DNA of 64,000 bases from Candidatus Desulfofervidus auxilii (lineage in GTDB: Bacteria; Desulfobacterota; Desulfofervidia; Desulfofervidales; Desulfofervidaceae). The stretch is from contig JAJSZS010000012.1 in the NCBI GenBank assembly GCA_030262725.1, positions 1 to 64,000 of the forward strand. Reading direction: 5' to 3'. Made by a program: the position numbers and the translations under genes. Positions within the stretch are counted from its first letter, which is position 1; the number at the start of each line of letters is the position of its first letter. Below the pieces are notes generated by a model, which did no database searches, was not told the origin of the DNA, and saw only the letters and a program-made list of their open reading frames with translations. Below are positions 17,236-38,032 of this stretch, piece by piece.

Positions 17236-19647
17236 ATGGATAAATTAATTCTTGAAGAAGTAACTGAACATAATTTAAAAGGATTTAACTTATGTATTCC
17301 TAAACATAAACTAATAGTCATAACTGGCGTTAGTGGATCTGGAAAATCAACCCTTGCTTTTGATGTAATTTACAAAGAGGGTCAAAGAAGATATTTAATG
17401 GCTATTCACCCAGCTATAAAACGTTTTTTACCAAGATTTGAAAAAACAAAAGTAAAAAATATCATTGGGCTTTCTCCTACATTAGGAATAAAACAACAAG
17501 TGGCAGCATTTAATCCTAGATCCACTGTTGGTACTTTAACAGAAATATATGATTTTTTACGTATTCTTTATGCTAAAGTTGCACTGCCTTATTGCCCTTA
17601 TTGTAACATACCTATTCCTAAATATACTATGCCTGAAATTATTAAAAAAATACTTTCTTTACCTAAAGGAGAAAAATGCATCATTCTTGCACCTATTGTC
17701 ATTAAAGGGGAAAAAGATTGGAAAAGATATATTAGAGAAGGTTTTATTAAGGCAAAAATTGATGACCATATTTATGATTTAACCGAAGAAATTCCTCCAT
17801 TAACACAAAAAGCAGATATAGTTGTTGATCGTCTTATTATTAAAGATCATATTAAAACACGTTTAAGAGATTCATTGGAATTGGCATTTAAATTAGCTAA
17901 TGGGAAAGTTAAAATAGAAATCCTTGAAAAGAATAAAACTTTATTTTTTAGTTTAGAATCTATATGCAATCAATGTGGTTTTCGCTTTCCTCCAATTACA
18001 CCTTTAATTTTTTCCTTTAATAATCCTTTTGGTGCCTGCCCTGTATGTCAGGGAATAGGAGAAAAGGAAGGAAAGGTTTGCCCAGCTTGTAAGGGAAAAC
18101 GTCTTAAATCAGAAGCACTTGCAATAAAACTTAATGGTAAAGATATTGCCTCAATTAGTGAATTACCAGTAAAAGAATTACTTTTTTTCTTAAAATCTAT
18201 TGATTTTTCATCCCAACAAAAAATTATCGCTATACCAATTTTAAAAGAAATAGAAAAAAGGATAAAAAATCTTTCTATTTTAGGTATTGATTATTTGCCT
18301 CTTAATCGACCTGTTACAAAAGTATCCACCGGTGAATACCAACGATTAATAATTGCTCTTTATTTAACACATCCTTTAAGTGACGTAATTTTTATCTTAG
18401 ATGAACCTACTACTGGTCTTCATCCAAAAGAAGTAGAAAAATTGATTTCTATTTTAAAAATATTAAGAGATATGGGGAACACAATATTAATTGTAGAACA
18501 TGATCTTCAAATAATTTCTAATGCTGATTATATAATTGAACTTGGGCCAGGGGCAGGGGAAAAAGGTGGGAAACTTATTTTCTCTGGTACTTTTCAAAAA
18601 TTTAAAAAAAGCAATACCATCACTGCTCAATATCTTTTAGGTAAGAAAATATATTTTCGCCAAAAACGATATTCTGATAAATATTTAATTATAGAAAAAG
18701 CAGCAGCTCGCAATTTAAAATCTATTACTGTATCTATTCCTTTAAATTGTTTTACTTGTATTACAGGTGTAAGTGGAAGTGGGAAAAGTGCTTTGGCAAT
18801 TGATGTACTTTATAATTATGTAAAACAATGGTTAGCAAAAAAAGAGATTACTGTGCCAGTAAAAGAAATAAAAGGAGTAGAAAATATCAAACAAGTTGTT
18901 CTTATTGATGCCCAGCCTATTGGCCGCACACATAAATCAAATCCAGCTACTTATATTGGTCTTTTTAGTCATATTAGACATTTATTTGCCAATTTACCAG
19001 AATCAAAGGCAAGGGGATATACACCTGAAAAATTTAGTCTCAATACAAAAGGAGGAAGATGTGAAGTCTGCCAAGGAGAAGGAGTTATTAAAATTGAAAT
19101 GCCACTTTTACCAGAAGTTTATCTTACTTGTGAAACTTGTGAAGGAAAGCGTTTTAATGAAGAAGTATTAGAAATAAAATTTAAAGGCAAAAATATAGCT
19201 GAGGTATTAGAAATGACTGTTGCAGAAGCATATGGATTTTTTCGCCATATACCCTATATAAAAAAATATCTTGAAATTATGATGAAAGTTGGTTTGGGCT
19301 ACCTTCAATTAGGACAACCTGCACCTAGTCTTTCTGGAGGAGAAGCACAGCGACTTAAACTTGCTAGAGAATTAATAAAAGGTAACAATAATGTTCTTTA
19401 TATTTTAGATGAACCCAGTATGGGATTACATTTAGAAGATATAAGAAAACTTTTAGAGCTCTTAGAAAAACTGCTTGAAAAAAATAATACAATAGTTATT
19501 GTTGAACATCACCCAGAGATAATAAAAGCAGCAGATTATGTCATTGAATTGGGGCCAGGTGCTGGAAATGATGGAGGATATCTGATAAAAAGTTATGCAC
19601 CACCTTTTACTACATTTCTACCTGATTTTTTGGCTTCAGCTAAATAA
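17236..19647 (+). CDS. UvrA-like ABC ATPase, shortened (lacks the insertion domain)
   Basis: 803 residues against about 940 for standard UvrA. Two ABC modules are present: Walker A GVSGSGKS at about 31-38 and again in the second half; Walker B FILDEPTTGLHP and YILDEPSMGLH; second signature PSLSGGEAQRL is canonical, while the first is divergent (VSTGEYQRL). The zinc module CEVCQGEGVIKIEM...CETCEGKRF is kept. Between GACPVCQGIG and CPACKGKRLKSEALA only about six residues remain where standard UvrA has a long DNA-binding insertion domain. The UvrB-binding region seems present. It may be a UvrA paralogue or a minimal UvrA; whether another uvrA exists in the genome is not visible. Confidence 0.8.
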   Translation: MDKLILEEVTEHNLKGFNLCIPKHKLIVITGVSGSGKSTLAFDVIYKEGQRRYLMAIHPAIKRFLPRFEKTKVKNIIGLSPTLGIKQQVAAFNPRSTVGTLTEIYDFLRILYAKVALPYCPYCNIPIPKYTMPEIIKKILSLPKGEKCIILAPIVIKGEKDWKRYIREGFIKAKIDDHIYDLTEEIPPLTQKADIVVDRLIIKDHIKTRLRDSLELAFKLANGKVKIEILEKNKTLFFSLESICNQCGFRFPPITPLIFSFNNPFGACPVCQGIGEKEGKVCPACKGKRLKSEALAIKLNGKDIASISELPVKELLFFLKSIDFSSQQKIIAIPILKEIEKRIKNLSILGIDYLPLNRPVTKVSTGEYQRLIIALYLTHPLSDVIFILDEPTTGLHPKEVEKLISILKILRDMGNTILIVEHDLQIISNADYIIELGPGAGEKGGKLIFSGTFQKFKKSNTITAQYLLGKKIYFRQKRYSDKYLIIEKAAARNLKSITVSIPLNCFTCITGVSGSGKSALAIDVLYNYVKQWLAKKEITVPVKEIKGVENIKQVVLIDAQPIGRTHKSNPATYIGLFSHIRHLFANLPESKARGYTPEKFSLNTKGGRCEVCQGEGVIKIEMPLLPEVYLTCETCEGKRFNEEVLEIKFKGKNIAEVLEMTVAEAYGFFRHIPYIKKYLEIMMKVGLGYLQLGQPAPSLSGGEAQRLKLARELIKGNNNVLYILDEPSMGLHLEDIRKLLELLEKLLEKNNTIVIVEHHPEIIKAADYVIELGPGAGNDGGYLIKSYAPPFTTFLPDFLASAK

Positions 19648-29206: not shown

Positions 29207-30646
29207 TTATCTTGGATGTCTCTTTCTAAATTCTTTAATATCTCTCTTCCACCCACCAGGCACTTCTTCTTCTTTCCAATAAATATATGGGTTAGAGCGA
29301 GGTTCTTTTACCATCTGTGGTGCTGGTGGTATCTCAAGAATTTCTGTAACAAACCGCCACAGACCCCAACGCTGAATTAATTCACCTAAACGCTCACGAT
29401 TCTTACCTTCTTCCATCCACCAATCCCAAACTTTTTCAACAATTGCCTTTATATTATCATAAGGCTTTTCTGTATACATAAATGGGATACCTACTAAAGA
29501 CATCTGCGCACCTTCAAGAATAGGTGCTTTAGCACCAAAAAGGATGCTTAAGCCTGTATCTACACCTGGTCTTAATGCCCTTGGCATAACAGCAATACAA
29601 TGCATACAACGTACACATTCTTTATTATCAATCTTTAATTCCTTCCCATCCCATTCCATACATTGGGCAGGACAGAGATCAATTACTTCTTTTTGAATAT
29701 CAAATGGACCCCAATCTCTGTCTCTAAAAGCACCTCCATTAGGTGGAATTTCTCCTGCTACATACGCTCTTACTGCTTCTTGATCAATGCGAATTTCATC
29801 TTTCCAAGTACCAATATAAGACATATCTGCTCTAGCAATACTAGCTACACAGCAGTTTGGACAACCATCAAACTTAAATTTAAATTTATATGGAAATGCT
29901 GGTCTATGTAATTCATCTTGATAATACATAGTCATTTCATAACACATATCCTGTGTATCTATCATAGCCCATTCACACCTTGCCTTCCCAATACAACAAG
30001 AAGGAGTTCTTAAATTTGAACCAGAACCACCTAAGTCAACACCCAAATCATGGGTTAAATCAAAGAATATAGGTTCTAATTGTTCAGTAACAGCTCCTAA
30101 AAAGACAGTATCACCAGTGGAACCATGCATGTTTGTAACACCACTACCACGATATTCACAAATGTCCATTAAACCTCTTAAATAATCTGTGTTATAAAAC
30201 TTACTAGCAGGCTGATTAATCCTAAGAGTATGAAATGCCCAAATTGCAGGAAATTTCTCTTGCTGATCAGAATATCTACCAATTACACCACCTCCATAAC
30301 CAAATACACCAATAATTCCACCATGTTTCCAATGAGTTTCTTTATCTATATAAGAAAGCTCAAGCTGACCTAATAAATCTTCACAACATTCTACTGGTCC
30401 TTGCAAATTCTCTTGCCCAAGTTTACGCCTATGTAAAGCCTCTCTTTTTAAATCACTAACAAAGCTAGGCCAAGGTCCTTTCTCTAGCTCTTCAAGCATA
30501 GGAATATCATGTTTGATTTTAAATTCTTTTAATTCTTCTTCAGTATAATTGTGTAATTGTTCGTCAGTAAAAATCCTTATATCTTCATAAGTTCTATGAC
30601 CTTCTACTTCTTTATCCCACATTTTTTCTTGCCCTTCAGCTGCCAT
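29207..30646 (-). CDS. dsrA: Dissimilatory sulfite reductase alpha subunit
   Basis: 479 residues, a little longer than many DsrA because of an N-terminal extension (MAAEGQEKMWDKEVEGHR). Siroheme-linked cluster cysteines are in TPSCCIGKARCEWA and DGCPNCCVASIARADM; the ferredoxin domain is CVRCMHCIAVMPRALRPG. It has its own promoter (30751-30779) and an unusual leader with three Shine-Dalgarno-like sites and a short upstream ORF. The functional ribosome site is GGAGG at 30655-30660. Confidence 0.97.
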   Translation of the reverse strand: MAAEGQEKMWDKEVEGHRTYEDIRIFTDEQLHNYTEEELKEFKIKHDIPMLEELEKGPWPSFVSDLKREALHRRKLGQENLQGPVECCEDLLGQLELSYIDKETHWKHGGIIGVFGYGGGVIGRYSDQQEKFPAIWAFHTLRINQPASKFYNTDYLRGLMDICEYRGSGVTNMHGSTGDTVFLGAVTEQLEPIFFDLTHDLGVDLGGSGSNLRTPSCCIGKARCEWAMIDTQDMCYEMTMYYQDELHRPAFPYKFKFKFDGCPNCCVASIARADMSYIGTWKDEIRIDQEAVRAYVAGEIPPNGGAFRDRDWGPFDIQKEVIDLCPAQCMEWDGKELKIDNKECVRCMHCIAVMPRALRPGVDTGLSILFGAKAPILEGAQMSLVGIPFMYTEKPYDNIKAIVEKVWDWWMEEGKNRERLGELIQRWGLWRFVTEILEIPPAPQMVKEPRSNPYIYWKEEEVPGGWKRDIKEFRKRHPR

Positions 30647-30706: not shown

Positions 30707-30779
30707 CCTCCTTTAACTTCCACCTCCTTCCTTCTTCTGTTGTATTTTCAAATATAATCTGCTCTTTCATTTTTGTCAA
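30707..30779 (-). promoter_or_regulatory. dsrA promoter and leader with orphan Shine-Dalgarno sites
   Basis: Minus strand TTGACA (30779-30774), 17 bases, TATATT (30756-30751): near-consensus. The -35 box begins about nine bases after the qmoC stop. GGAAGGAGG (complement of 30723-30731) begins 20 bases after the -10 box, about +14, with no start codon at a suitable distance. A second AGGAGG follows at 30707-30712. Leader length about 98 bases. Confidence 0.82.
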
Positions 30780-35521: not shown

Positions 35522-37429
35522 TTAGTCAATGGGTAATGGGATATAAGGTCTCTCAAACATTTCCCACTCACCGGTCTCAGGATTAATCTTGGAAAGCACA
35601 AACTTCTTCCAGTTCTGCTCATCAATATCTGGATAATCAGAACGATAGTAATAACCAGGCCATCTGGTCTCCTTCCTATAAAGGAGATGACGCATATGAC
35701 ATTCAGCTGTAATCAAACGATGATAGTTTTCCCATGCACGCATCAACTCATGAAGATTTTCAGCAGCTAGTTTTTCAGAGTCTTCTTTAAGCATCTGGAG
35801 CTTTTCTAAACCTCTCAACAGTGCAGGTTCATTAGTAGTGTATTGTGTACCAATACCACCTGCATATTCATCCATAATCTTATTAAGACGGAATACAAAC
35901 TGTTTAGGTCTGATGTAGAATGGATTTACATTAGGATCAGTGGTATAACCCTTATGTTCCTCAAAGGTCTTAAGAGGTCTGTATACCAAATCCATCAATT
36001 CTTTTACATCACCACGAGGTTTGGGTTCAAAATCCTTATGATCAAGGATGTATTTAATAGCTGCTTTTGCAGCAATCCTTCCTTCTGCATGAGAACCAGA
36101 AGAGAACTTATGGGCAGAAGCACCCACACCATCACCAGCAGTAAATAGACCTTCTACTGTAGTCATACGGTTGTACATACCAGGGAAGTCAGACTTATAT
36201 TCTTCAGGCATAAGGTCTTCTGGACCACAACACCAAGCACCATTAGCACCAGAGTGAGAGCCCATAAGATATGGTTCTGAAGGCATAATCTCAGATTTGA
36301 CCTTTTCAGGCTCAACGTTTTCAGCAGCCCAGAGGATTGACTGGCTTACTGTCATATCAAGGAAGTCTTCCCATGCCTCAGCTTCAAGCTTCTTTGCACG
36401 CTTTGGATCTGCCTCCATAATAGCCTTCATTGCAGCTTCAGTTCTCATAAAGATTGGGAACTTTCCTCCAAACATATCAAGCATCATAGCATGGTTTCTC
36501 AAACAAGTAGGAGTTGGTTTAACAAGACCATAAGGAGCGTATTTTTCAATATCTGCCTTTCTGGTCTTCATATATTCTTCATCAAATGCATTAGTAGCAT
36601 AAGCTTTAAACAGTAAGAACCAAGCACCTACTGGACCATAACCATCTTTATAACGGGCAGGAACAAAGCGGCATTCCATATTTACATGAGCAGCACCTAC
36701 TTCTAACATCATAGAATAAGTAGAACCAGCATTCCAAGGAGGATACCATGCACGACCATAACCTTCACCTGTGGAACGTGGACGGAAAATGTGCACTGCA
36801 CCACCACAGGCAACTATAATTGCTTTTGCTTTAAAGAAATAGAATTTATTTTCTCTTACACTAAAACCAACTGCACCAGCAATTCTATTAGGATGATTTT
36901 CATCTAATAAAAGTTTTACAACAAATACACGTTCAAGGATATTTTCTTCACCAAGAGCATTCTTTGCTGCTTCAGCCACAATGCACTTATAAGACTCACC
37001 ATTAATCATAATCTGCCAAGTACCTTCACGAACATATTTGCCTTCTTCATTCTTCCAAATAGGAAGACCCCATTTTTCAAAAAGATGAACTGAACCATCT
37101 ACATGTCTACCTACATCATAAACTAGGTCTTCACGTACAACACCCATTAAATCTTGACGAACATACTTTACATATTCTTCAGGAGTTCTGTCACCTTTTG
37201 TACCACCTACCTCTGGAGCAGCTCTTCCACTCATTCCAAGATATGTATTGATGGCGGATAAACCTTGAGCGACTGCACCACTTCTTTCTAAGGCTGCCTT
37301 ATCTACTAAAATCACTTTAATATCATCACCAGCCCAATATTTTGCTTCCACAGCCGCCCCACAGGCAGCCATACCGCCACCAACAATTAATAAATCAGTA
37401 TTAATTTCGACAACTTCAAATTCTGCCAT
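35522..37429 (-). CDS. aprA: Adenylylsulfate (APS) reductase alpha subunit
   Basis: 635 residues, usual length. FAD motif LLIVGGGMAACGAAVEA at the start, VDKAALERSGAVAQGLSAIN, substrate-site RPRSTGEGYGRAWYPPWNAG and GVGASAHKFSSGSHAEGR. With AprB it reduces APS to sulfite and AMP in the cytoplasm, using electrons from Qmo. It follows aprB after 26 bases with an AGGAGGTAAG ribosome site. Confidence 0.97.
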   Translation of the reverse strand: MAEFEVVEINTDLLIVGGGMAACGAAVEAKYWAGDDIKVILVDKAALERSGAVAQGLSAINTYLGMSGRAAPEVGGTKGDRTPEEYVKYVRQDLMGVVREDLVYDVGRHVDGSVHLFEKWGLPIWKNEEGKYVREGTWQIMINGESYKCIVAEAAKNALGEENILERVFVVKLLLDENHPNRIAGAVGFSVRENKFYFFKAKAIIVACGGAVHIFRPRSTGEGYGRAWYPPWNAGSTYSMMLEVGAAHVNMECRFVPARYKDGYGPVGAWFLLFKAYATNAFDEEYMKTRKADIEKYAPYGLVKPTPTCLRNHAMMLDMFGGKFPIFMRTEAAMKAIMEADPKRAKKLEAEAWEDFLDMTVSQSILWAAENVEPEKVKSEIMPSEPYLMGSHSGANGAWCCGPEDLMPEEYKSDFPGMYNRMTTVEGLFTAGDGVGASAHKFSSGSHAEGRIAAKAAIKYILDHKDFEPKPRGDVKELMDLVYRPLKTFEEHKGYTTDPNVNPFYIRPKQFVFRLNKIMDEYAGGIGTQYTTNEPALLRGLEKLQMLKEDSEKLAAENLHELMRAWENYHRLITAECHMRHLLYRKETRWPGYYYRSDYPDIDEQNWKKFVLSKINPETGEWEMFERPYIPLPID

Positions 37430-37455: not shown

Positions 37456-37902
37456 TTACTTTTTAATAGTAGGTAATTCGCCTACTTCCAATACTTCAGG
37501 TTCTGCAAAAAGATAATTATCACCTATCTTGGAACGATCTGCTGGAGGATAACCAGCATATACATCAATTGAACCTTCTGGGGTTGTCCGAATTGGGAAT
37601 TTAAACCGTTTAATTAGACCATTTCTGAATTTTACTGTCCACATAATAGAATCTGTACCACGCATTGGGATAACACTTGCTCCCAATGGTACAAAATCAG
37701 TATAACCTCTTACTTCAATAGCCTGTTGTGGACAGATCTTCACACAAGAATAACATTCCCAACACATATCAGGCTCTTGATTATAAGCCTTCATGATCTC
37801 CCTATTAAGCACCATCAAATCATTTGGACAAATATACTGACATGCTGTTCTGGGAGCAGATTGACACCCATCACATTTTTCTACTTTTACAAAACTTGGC
37901 AT
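37456..37902 (-). CDS. aprB: Adenylylsulfate (APS) reductase beta subunit
   Basis: 148 residues. An eight-cysteine, two-cluster ferredoxin domain: KCDGCQSAPRTACQYICP and CWECYSCVKICPQQAIEVRGY. A C-terminal tail embraces AprA. It feeds electrons to the AprA flavin. GGAGGTG precedes the ATG at 37902. First gene of the apr-qmo unit. Confidence 0.97.
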   Translation of the reverse strand: MPSFVKVEKCDGCQSAPRTACQYICPNDLMVLNREIMKAYNQEPDMCWECYSCVKICPQQAIEVRGYTDFVPLGASVIPMRGTDSIMWTVKFRNGLIKRFKFPIRTTPEGSIDVYAGYPPADRSKIGDNYLFAEPEVLEVGELPTIKK

Positions 37903-37975
37903 ACTTACACCTCCATTTTTTGTTTTAAGCTAAAAATAAGTCTATTTTTTTATCTTTATAACTTATCCCATCCCA

Positions 37976-38032
37976 CCTCCTTTCTCCCTTTTAACCAGTG
38001 GTATATATAACATAAGCTCATGATTCTGTCAA
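37976..38032 (-). promoter_or_regulatory. aprBA promoter with orphan Shine-Dalgarno near the 5' end
   Basis: Minus strand TTGACA (38032-38027), 17 bases, TATATA (38009-38004). Predicted start about 37997, leader about 95 bases. GAAAGGAGG (complement of 37976-37984) begins 20 bases after the -10 box; only an ATG-GGA-TAA minimal ORF (37971-37963) follows it. The true aprB ribosome site is at 37908-37914. GAAAGGAGG equals the core of the Stab-SD mRNA stabiliser known from Bacillus cry3A. Confidence 0.85.

Follow-up and report, generated by a model that had tools for sequence, protein, structure and literature searches.

Ribosome standby sites are upstream contacts of the 30S subunit, which are usually unstructured stretches and not 11-nt matches to the anti-Shine-Dalgarno sequence. 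In Bacillus, orphan Shine-Dalgarno (SD) sequences were found to stabilise mRNA (PMC4113751, PMC3997798), where such a site stops RNase J1 (PMC4113751). The Stab-SD of cry3A in Bacillus thuringiensis (Agaisse and Lereclus 1996; review PMC4113751) is placed near the 5' end, at -129. The strong 5' SDs of hbs and gsiB in Bacillus are likewise cited as protecting their mRNAs in PMC3997798. A 5'-bound ribosome in E. coli gives no protection against RNase E at a distance (PMC3997798).

Here we describe an orphan SD located in front of aprBA and dsrAB in a stretch of 64,000 nucleotides from Candidatus Desulfofervidus auxilii, which is referred to as the window. Both are marker operons of dissimilatory sulfate reduction. 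As in cry3A, where the gene downstream is very highly expressed, the element is an SD-like sequence in the 5' UTR which is complementary to the 3' end of 16S rRNA (the tail being taken from the literature) and appears to direct no translation. In contrast to the cry3A Stab-SD, it occurs in a gram-negative phylum and in Nitrospirota, it precedes core respiration operons, it is extended to 11 nt and keeps a set distance from the real SD, and the family of the window lacks RNase J. It would share with the SDs of hbs and gsiB a binding of the ribosome near the 5' end, which is linked to a long mRNA life, but those are the genes' own initiating SDs whereas the present element is separate from the initiating SD and has no start codon. 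As a candidate 30S contact upstream of and apart from the initiating site, it can also be compared with standby sites, from which it differs in its 11-nt anti-SD match and in a spacing of at least 63 nt. The openly accessible literature searched describes no post-transcriptional signal in aprBA or dsrAB leaders and no orphan SD in them, and an earlier description elsewhere is possible.

The aprB (37456..37902, (-)) and aprA (35522..37429, (-)) genes were identified with curated profile models as the beta (TIGR02060, 216.5 bits, cut-off 135.65) and alpha (TIGR02061, 1004 bits) subunits of adenylyl-sulfate reductase. A promoter is predicted upstream from a reading of the sequence, with a -35 hexamer TTGACA (38027..38032, (-); a consensus match only) separated by a 17-nt spacer from a -10 hexamer TATATA (38004..38009, (-)); its PWM score is 10.3 and 12% of shuffles were equally good. 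The orphan extended SD GAAAGGAGGTG, conserved as GRRRGGRGGTG in aprB leaders, is located at 37974..37984 (-) and contains the core GAAAGGAGG (37976..37984, (-)). It shows 11-nt complementarity to the 16S tail CACCUCCUUUC, a tail taken from the literature and not the host's own. The core begins 20 bases past the -10 box, as was correctly stated in the original prediction, and the orphan GGAGG lies 23 nt past it, with the predicted transcript start about 14 nt upstream of the orphan SD. The distance to the real start, given earlier as about 74 bases, is close to the 78 nt observed between the orphan GGAGG and the aprB ATG (37902). The real aprB SD is TGGAGGTG, whose GGAGG (37910..37914, (-)) is found 66 nt past the orphan one. 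As had been noted, no start codon follows the orphan SD except that of the two-codon frame ATG-GGA-TAA (37963..37971, (-)), where the ATG is 4 nt past the orphan GGAGG; this frame was not conserved in the leaders of relatives. Elsewhere in the window, we noticed a UvrA-like protein (17236-19647, (+)) of 803 aa as compared with models of 924-943 positions, with matches in two stretches.

The dsrA gene, encoding the alpha subunit of dissimilatory sulfite reductase (29207..30646, (-); TIGR02064, 567.7 bits), has a predicted promoter (score 16.2) composed of a -35 hexamer TTGACA (30774..30779, (-)), a 17-nt spacer and a -10 hexamer TATATT (30751..30756, (-)). The orphan extended SD GGAAGGAGGTG is located at 30721..30731 (-), and the same motif is found in dsrA leaders of other genera. 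Its GGAGG is 81 nt upstream of the dsrA ATG and 23 nt past the -10 box, the same gap as in aprBA, and thus the claim that the two leaders share the element class and its distance to the -10 box holds in the window. A second SD-like sequence, AAAGGAGG (30707..30714, (-)), was not observed in the family's other genomes. A GTG frame VEVKGGLVKKYGKFEKSKNKRRR (30723-30652, (-)) runs from inside the dsrA orphan SD to a TAA overlapping the real dsrA SD, which is possibly coincidental. In addition, DsrA is extended at its N-terminus by about 50 residues relative to TIGR02064 (30646-30497, (-)), which was also observed in the family's other genomes and in some others.

The orphan SD in front of aprBA and dsrAB is a real and widely conserved element. 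Within the 64-kb window, GAAAGGAGG occurs once where 0.33 copies are expected, which is near chance, and therefore conservation had to decide its significance. We located aprB in 160 of the phylum's 394 genomes, and leaders were sampled from relatives and from about one genome per genus, together with 80 named loci from other taxa. In a strict test, AAGGAGG or GGAGGTG was sought between -150 and -40 in 98 non-duplicate aprB leaders of the phylum. A total of 49/98 leaders were positive, as compared with 1/98 on the antisense strand and a mean of 3.9 (maximum 9) in 200 dinucleotide shuffles. Control leaders of other nearby genes gave 7/165, several of them inside coding frames, and with GGGGGTG also allowed, 58/98 aprB leaders carry the element. 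When motifs were sought by EM without a preset pattern, GRRRGGRGGTG (the GAAAGGAGGTG of the window) was recovered in 65% of the 98 leaders and only a weak unrelated motif in the control leaders. The antisense run of this search covers the same windows reversed and is no control; the strand control is the 1/98 of the strict test.

The element was observed in aprB leaders of 29 of the 47 families sampled, where it is mostly present in all or none of the members. For example, it is found in 5/5 leaders of the window's family and in 6/6, 5/5 and 4/4 of others, while still others have 0/5, 0/4 and 0/3. Mapped on an AprB tree (177 rows), the element label requires 25 changes compared with 59 when the labels are shuffled. 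Nitrospirota also carry the element, often as GAGAGGGGGTGA, and it was found in none of the gammaproteobacterial loci sampled. Judging by AprB sequence types, the order to which Desulfovibrio vulgaris Hildenborough belongs also seems to be without it. Among dsrA leaders, 16/29 genomes (that of the window included) have it between -150 and -40, against none on the opposite strand. Sixteen genomes carry it in front of both apr and dsr, 11 in front of apr only and 2 in front of neither. The EM search of the dsrA windows yielded a motif matching that of aprB. Since the flanks of the leaders do not align, it is the element that is kept and not a copied leader.

The logo of the orphan site reads G-R-R-R-G-G-R-G-G-U-G. 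Pairing was computed against the Bacillus-type 16S tail of the literature, 5'-GAUCACCUCCUUUCU-3' (PMC6107228), from which the hosts' own tail may differ, and the 11-nt duplex presumes a host tail ending CCUCCUUUCU; no 16S 3' end was found in about 970 kb from five genomes, some stretches of which were masked. All 11 logo positions fit this tail, with G only opposite C, U opposite A and A or G opposite U, so that the purine variation is confined to positions opposite U. The G at -4 is 91-94% conserved, which is unexplained by the E. coli tail, and the GGGGGTG variants keep the pairing through G-U. With the Bacillus-type tail, the duplex energy was -20.2 kcal/mol for the orphan site and -12.6 kcal/mol for the real SD, the orphan being the stronger in 74/74 leaders; the 13-nt E. 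coli tail gave -16.2 and -12.4. Furthermore, the extended motif was found in 47/58 orphan sites but in 0/57 real SDs of the same genes. The predicted accessibility of the orphan site was not above that obtained with shuffled flanks, and masking by an internal anti-SD was found in 2 leaders where 1.1 are expected. In two families (f72 and f90; leaders L162, L173, L181, L186 and others), we noticed AACCTTTAGGAGG or a sequence near it just upstream of the real aprB SD; the CCTTT in this sequence might form pairs with the AAAGG in the orphan SD, but no covariation was observed.

Start codons at a spacing of 3-14 behind the apr orphan sites were observed in 9/58 leaders against 25 expected, and 0/500 shuffles were as low. 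T is rare in this stretch. The dsr sites point in the same direction, with a start codon behind 2/16 sites against 4.1 expected, in a set too small for significance. Because of this depletion, the site looks selected to bind without starting, which suggests that the orphan SD is non-initiating. The ATG-GGA-TAA of the window is one exception.

The distance to the real start, and not to the promoter, is the general conserved spacing of the orphan SD. The orphan and real GGAGG are 63-127 nt apart (median 77) with a sharp lower edge, and the 63-nt minimum would be roughly the room needed for two ribosomes side by side, judging from general footprint sizes. The true start is found at a median of 91 nt (apr) and 85 nt (dsr) from the orphan site, and of the 76 sites located between -40 and -160, 52 are 80-100 nt before the start. 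The gap between the -10 box and the orphan site is 23-65 nt in apr leaders and 21-23 nt in dsrA leaders of the window's family, about 70 nt in dsrA leaders of other families and 21-71 nt in relatives with clear predicted promoters. A fixed promoter distance was rejected because of this variation among relatives. The original prediction had placed the site at +14 and had made its validity depend on enrichment there in orthologous apr and dsr leaders. The orphan SD is indeed enriched across the phylum, but not at a fixed +14, which is a local feature of the window as the -10 distance is unconstrained in relatives.

A leader shared by highly expressed operons had also been proposed, and the same layout was found to precede other genes which are probably highly expressed. 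A census of the host genome by pattern searches and short stretches examined 56 AAGGAGGTG sites, where 25 are ordinary starts, 19 are in frames and 12 are neither. The 12 orphan-type sites include those of aprB, dsrA, a porin-like barrel, a secreted protein, a type IV pilin and a trypsin-like protein, and in these six cases a second SD is present and the next start is 58-83 nt on. Across 12 genomes, the two-SD pattern gave 59 matches, some of them in frames, compared with 5 for the reversed pattern. The leader matches include those of apr, dsr, a pilin, porins, a substrate-binding protein, an H+-pyrophosphatase and a multihaem cytochrome. Porins, pilins and the other genes with this layout probably encode abundant proteins.

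Some further sites in the host genome were noticed. At L222 (C1) and L233 (C3), an extended SD precedes a tiny frame (10 and 6 codons), and a second SD comes next in front of a porin-like and a trypsin-like protein, perhaps as a translated variant of the same layout. At L235 (C4, ~6392), CRISPR-like direct repeats ending ATGAGGGATTGAAAC adjoin a AAGGAGGTG site. At L239/L240 (C4, ~107420), copies of AAGGAGGTG on the two strands form an inverted repeat lying between a pair of divergent genes, which by eye are aspartate carbamoyltransferase-like and FmdE-like.

The conservation of the orphan SD points to a ribosome subunit parked there which protects or primes the apr and dsr messages. The sequences show a conserved motif whose positions follow the logic of 16S pairing, together with the missing starts, the spacing and the class of genes, and from these we infer 30S docking and mRNA protection at the site. 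The leader GRRRGGRGGUG would form a duplex of about 11 nt with the 16S rRNA 3' tail and, with no start codon at the right distance, the bound 30S would park without initiating. As the site is at least 63 nt upstream of the real SD, a second ribosome could initiate there simultaneously. The parked subunit would shield the leader and the 5' region of abundant mRNAs from decay, which in lineages without RNase J, such as that of the window, would involve hindering RNase E/G in its 5'-end-dependent entry; in relatives that possess RNase J, this exonuclease may be stopped by the subunit as well. mRNA protection is our best guess: we give about an even chance to the orphan SD being a non-initiating, high-affinity 30S docking site where the parked subunit most likely shields abundant mRNAs from decay. 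Counting against a 5'-end shield from RNase E is the variable promoter distance, as such a shield would prefer a 5'-proximal site, and protection alone does not explain why the spacing to the start has an upper limit.

RNase J is absent from this genome (99.99% complete) and from three relatives of the family, and RNase E/G is present in 16/16 genomes tested, this one included. Therefore, the Bacillus mechanism in which RNase J is stopped by the ribosome cannot operate here, and any protection must hinder RNase E/G or another enzyme. The likeness to Stab-SD that was originally put forward stands for the SD-like orphan and the avoidance of starts but not for the RNase J mechanism. The apr/dsr element is anatomically similar to Stab-SD and may act as one; membership is not claimed because the known mechanism is defined by the RNase J step, which cannot operate in this genome. 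In the wider phylum, the element was observed in 22/26 genomes with RNase J and in 12/23 without it (Fisher p=0.03, uncorrected for kinship). Relatedness among the genomes leaves only 5 independent pairs, about one of them informative, and on this weak raw association a dependence on RNase J was not adopted. In view of the E. coli result with RNase E (PMC3997798), confidence in protection stays moderate.

The main rival is standby loading, where the orphan SD raises the local 30S concentration and feeds the real start, affecting the translation rate and not the mRNA life. It takes this rank because the start distance is what is conserved (the 80-100 nt of the 52/76 sites) while the promoter distance varies, and the second SD at the real start in the listed leaders also fits with it. 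However, a direct hand-over across about 77 nt would require mRNA looping, the orphan and real sites show no covarying pairing, and a very strong 11-nt duplex should slow the release of 30S; we regard standby loading as rather unlikely. Early capture of 30S by the nascent leader, which through ribosome-RNA polymerase coupling or Rho masking would let long operons be completed, is more doubtful again. Several of the genes form long operons or encode abundant proteins and in the window the site emerges early from the polymerase (23 nt past -10), but the distance from -10 is about 70 nt in other families.

A protein-binding site (a CsrA-type GGA or a repressor operator) or a structured regulatory RNA could merely resemble an SD, given that the leaders are GGA-rich and the site is common to two operons of one pathway. 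This is improbable because the GGGGGTG variants lose GGA and keep the 16S pairing, the purines vary exactly opposite U, and the same layout is found before unrelated porins and pilins. No TIGR00202 match for a CsrA gene was found in this genome and no CsrA/RsmA site is assigned. A conserved RNA structure or Rfam family was rejected, with no Rfam match in the window or in 20 leader loci and no covarying structure in an alignment of 8 leader sequences. A regulatory uORF translated from the orphan SD (here Met-Gly-stop) is marginally less probable than such a binding site. The ATG 4 nt past the orphan GGAGG in the window and the two cases in the host genome with 6- and 10-codon frames would agree with it, but the depletion of start codons (9/58 against 25), with most relatives having none, and the absence of any conserved peptide oppose it; a leader-peptide attenuator was rejected as no conserved translated short frame was found. 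Chance occurrence in a purine-rich leader, which the near-expected single copy of GAAAGGAGG per 64 kb would allow, has a negligible probability and is already refuted by the 49/98 positive leaders against at most 9 in 200 shuffles and by the 49:1 strand bias.

Beyond mRNA protection at apr and dsr, we tentatively propose, at somewhat less than an even chance, a general leader class in Desulfobacterota and Nitrospirota where the docking site would set the abundance of the top messages independently of RNase J, unlike the Bacillus Stab-SD. The apr/dsr element would offer ample natural material for testing what orphan SDs do outside Bacillus, and the lineages without RNase J make it directly testable whether Stab-SD is only an RNase J barrier. 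If true, the element would be a ready part for tuning expression in sulfate reducers, and a conserved parked-ribosome element would give a first handle on how these organisms keep their apr and dsr mRNAs abundant.
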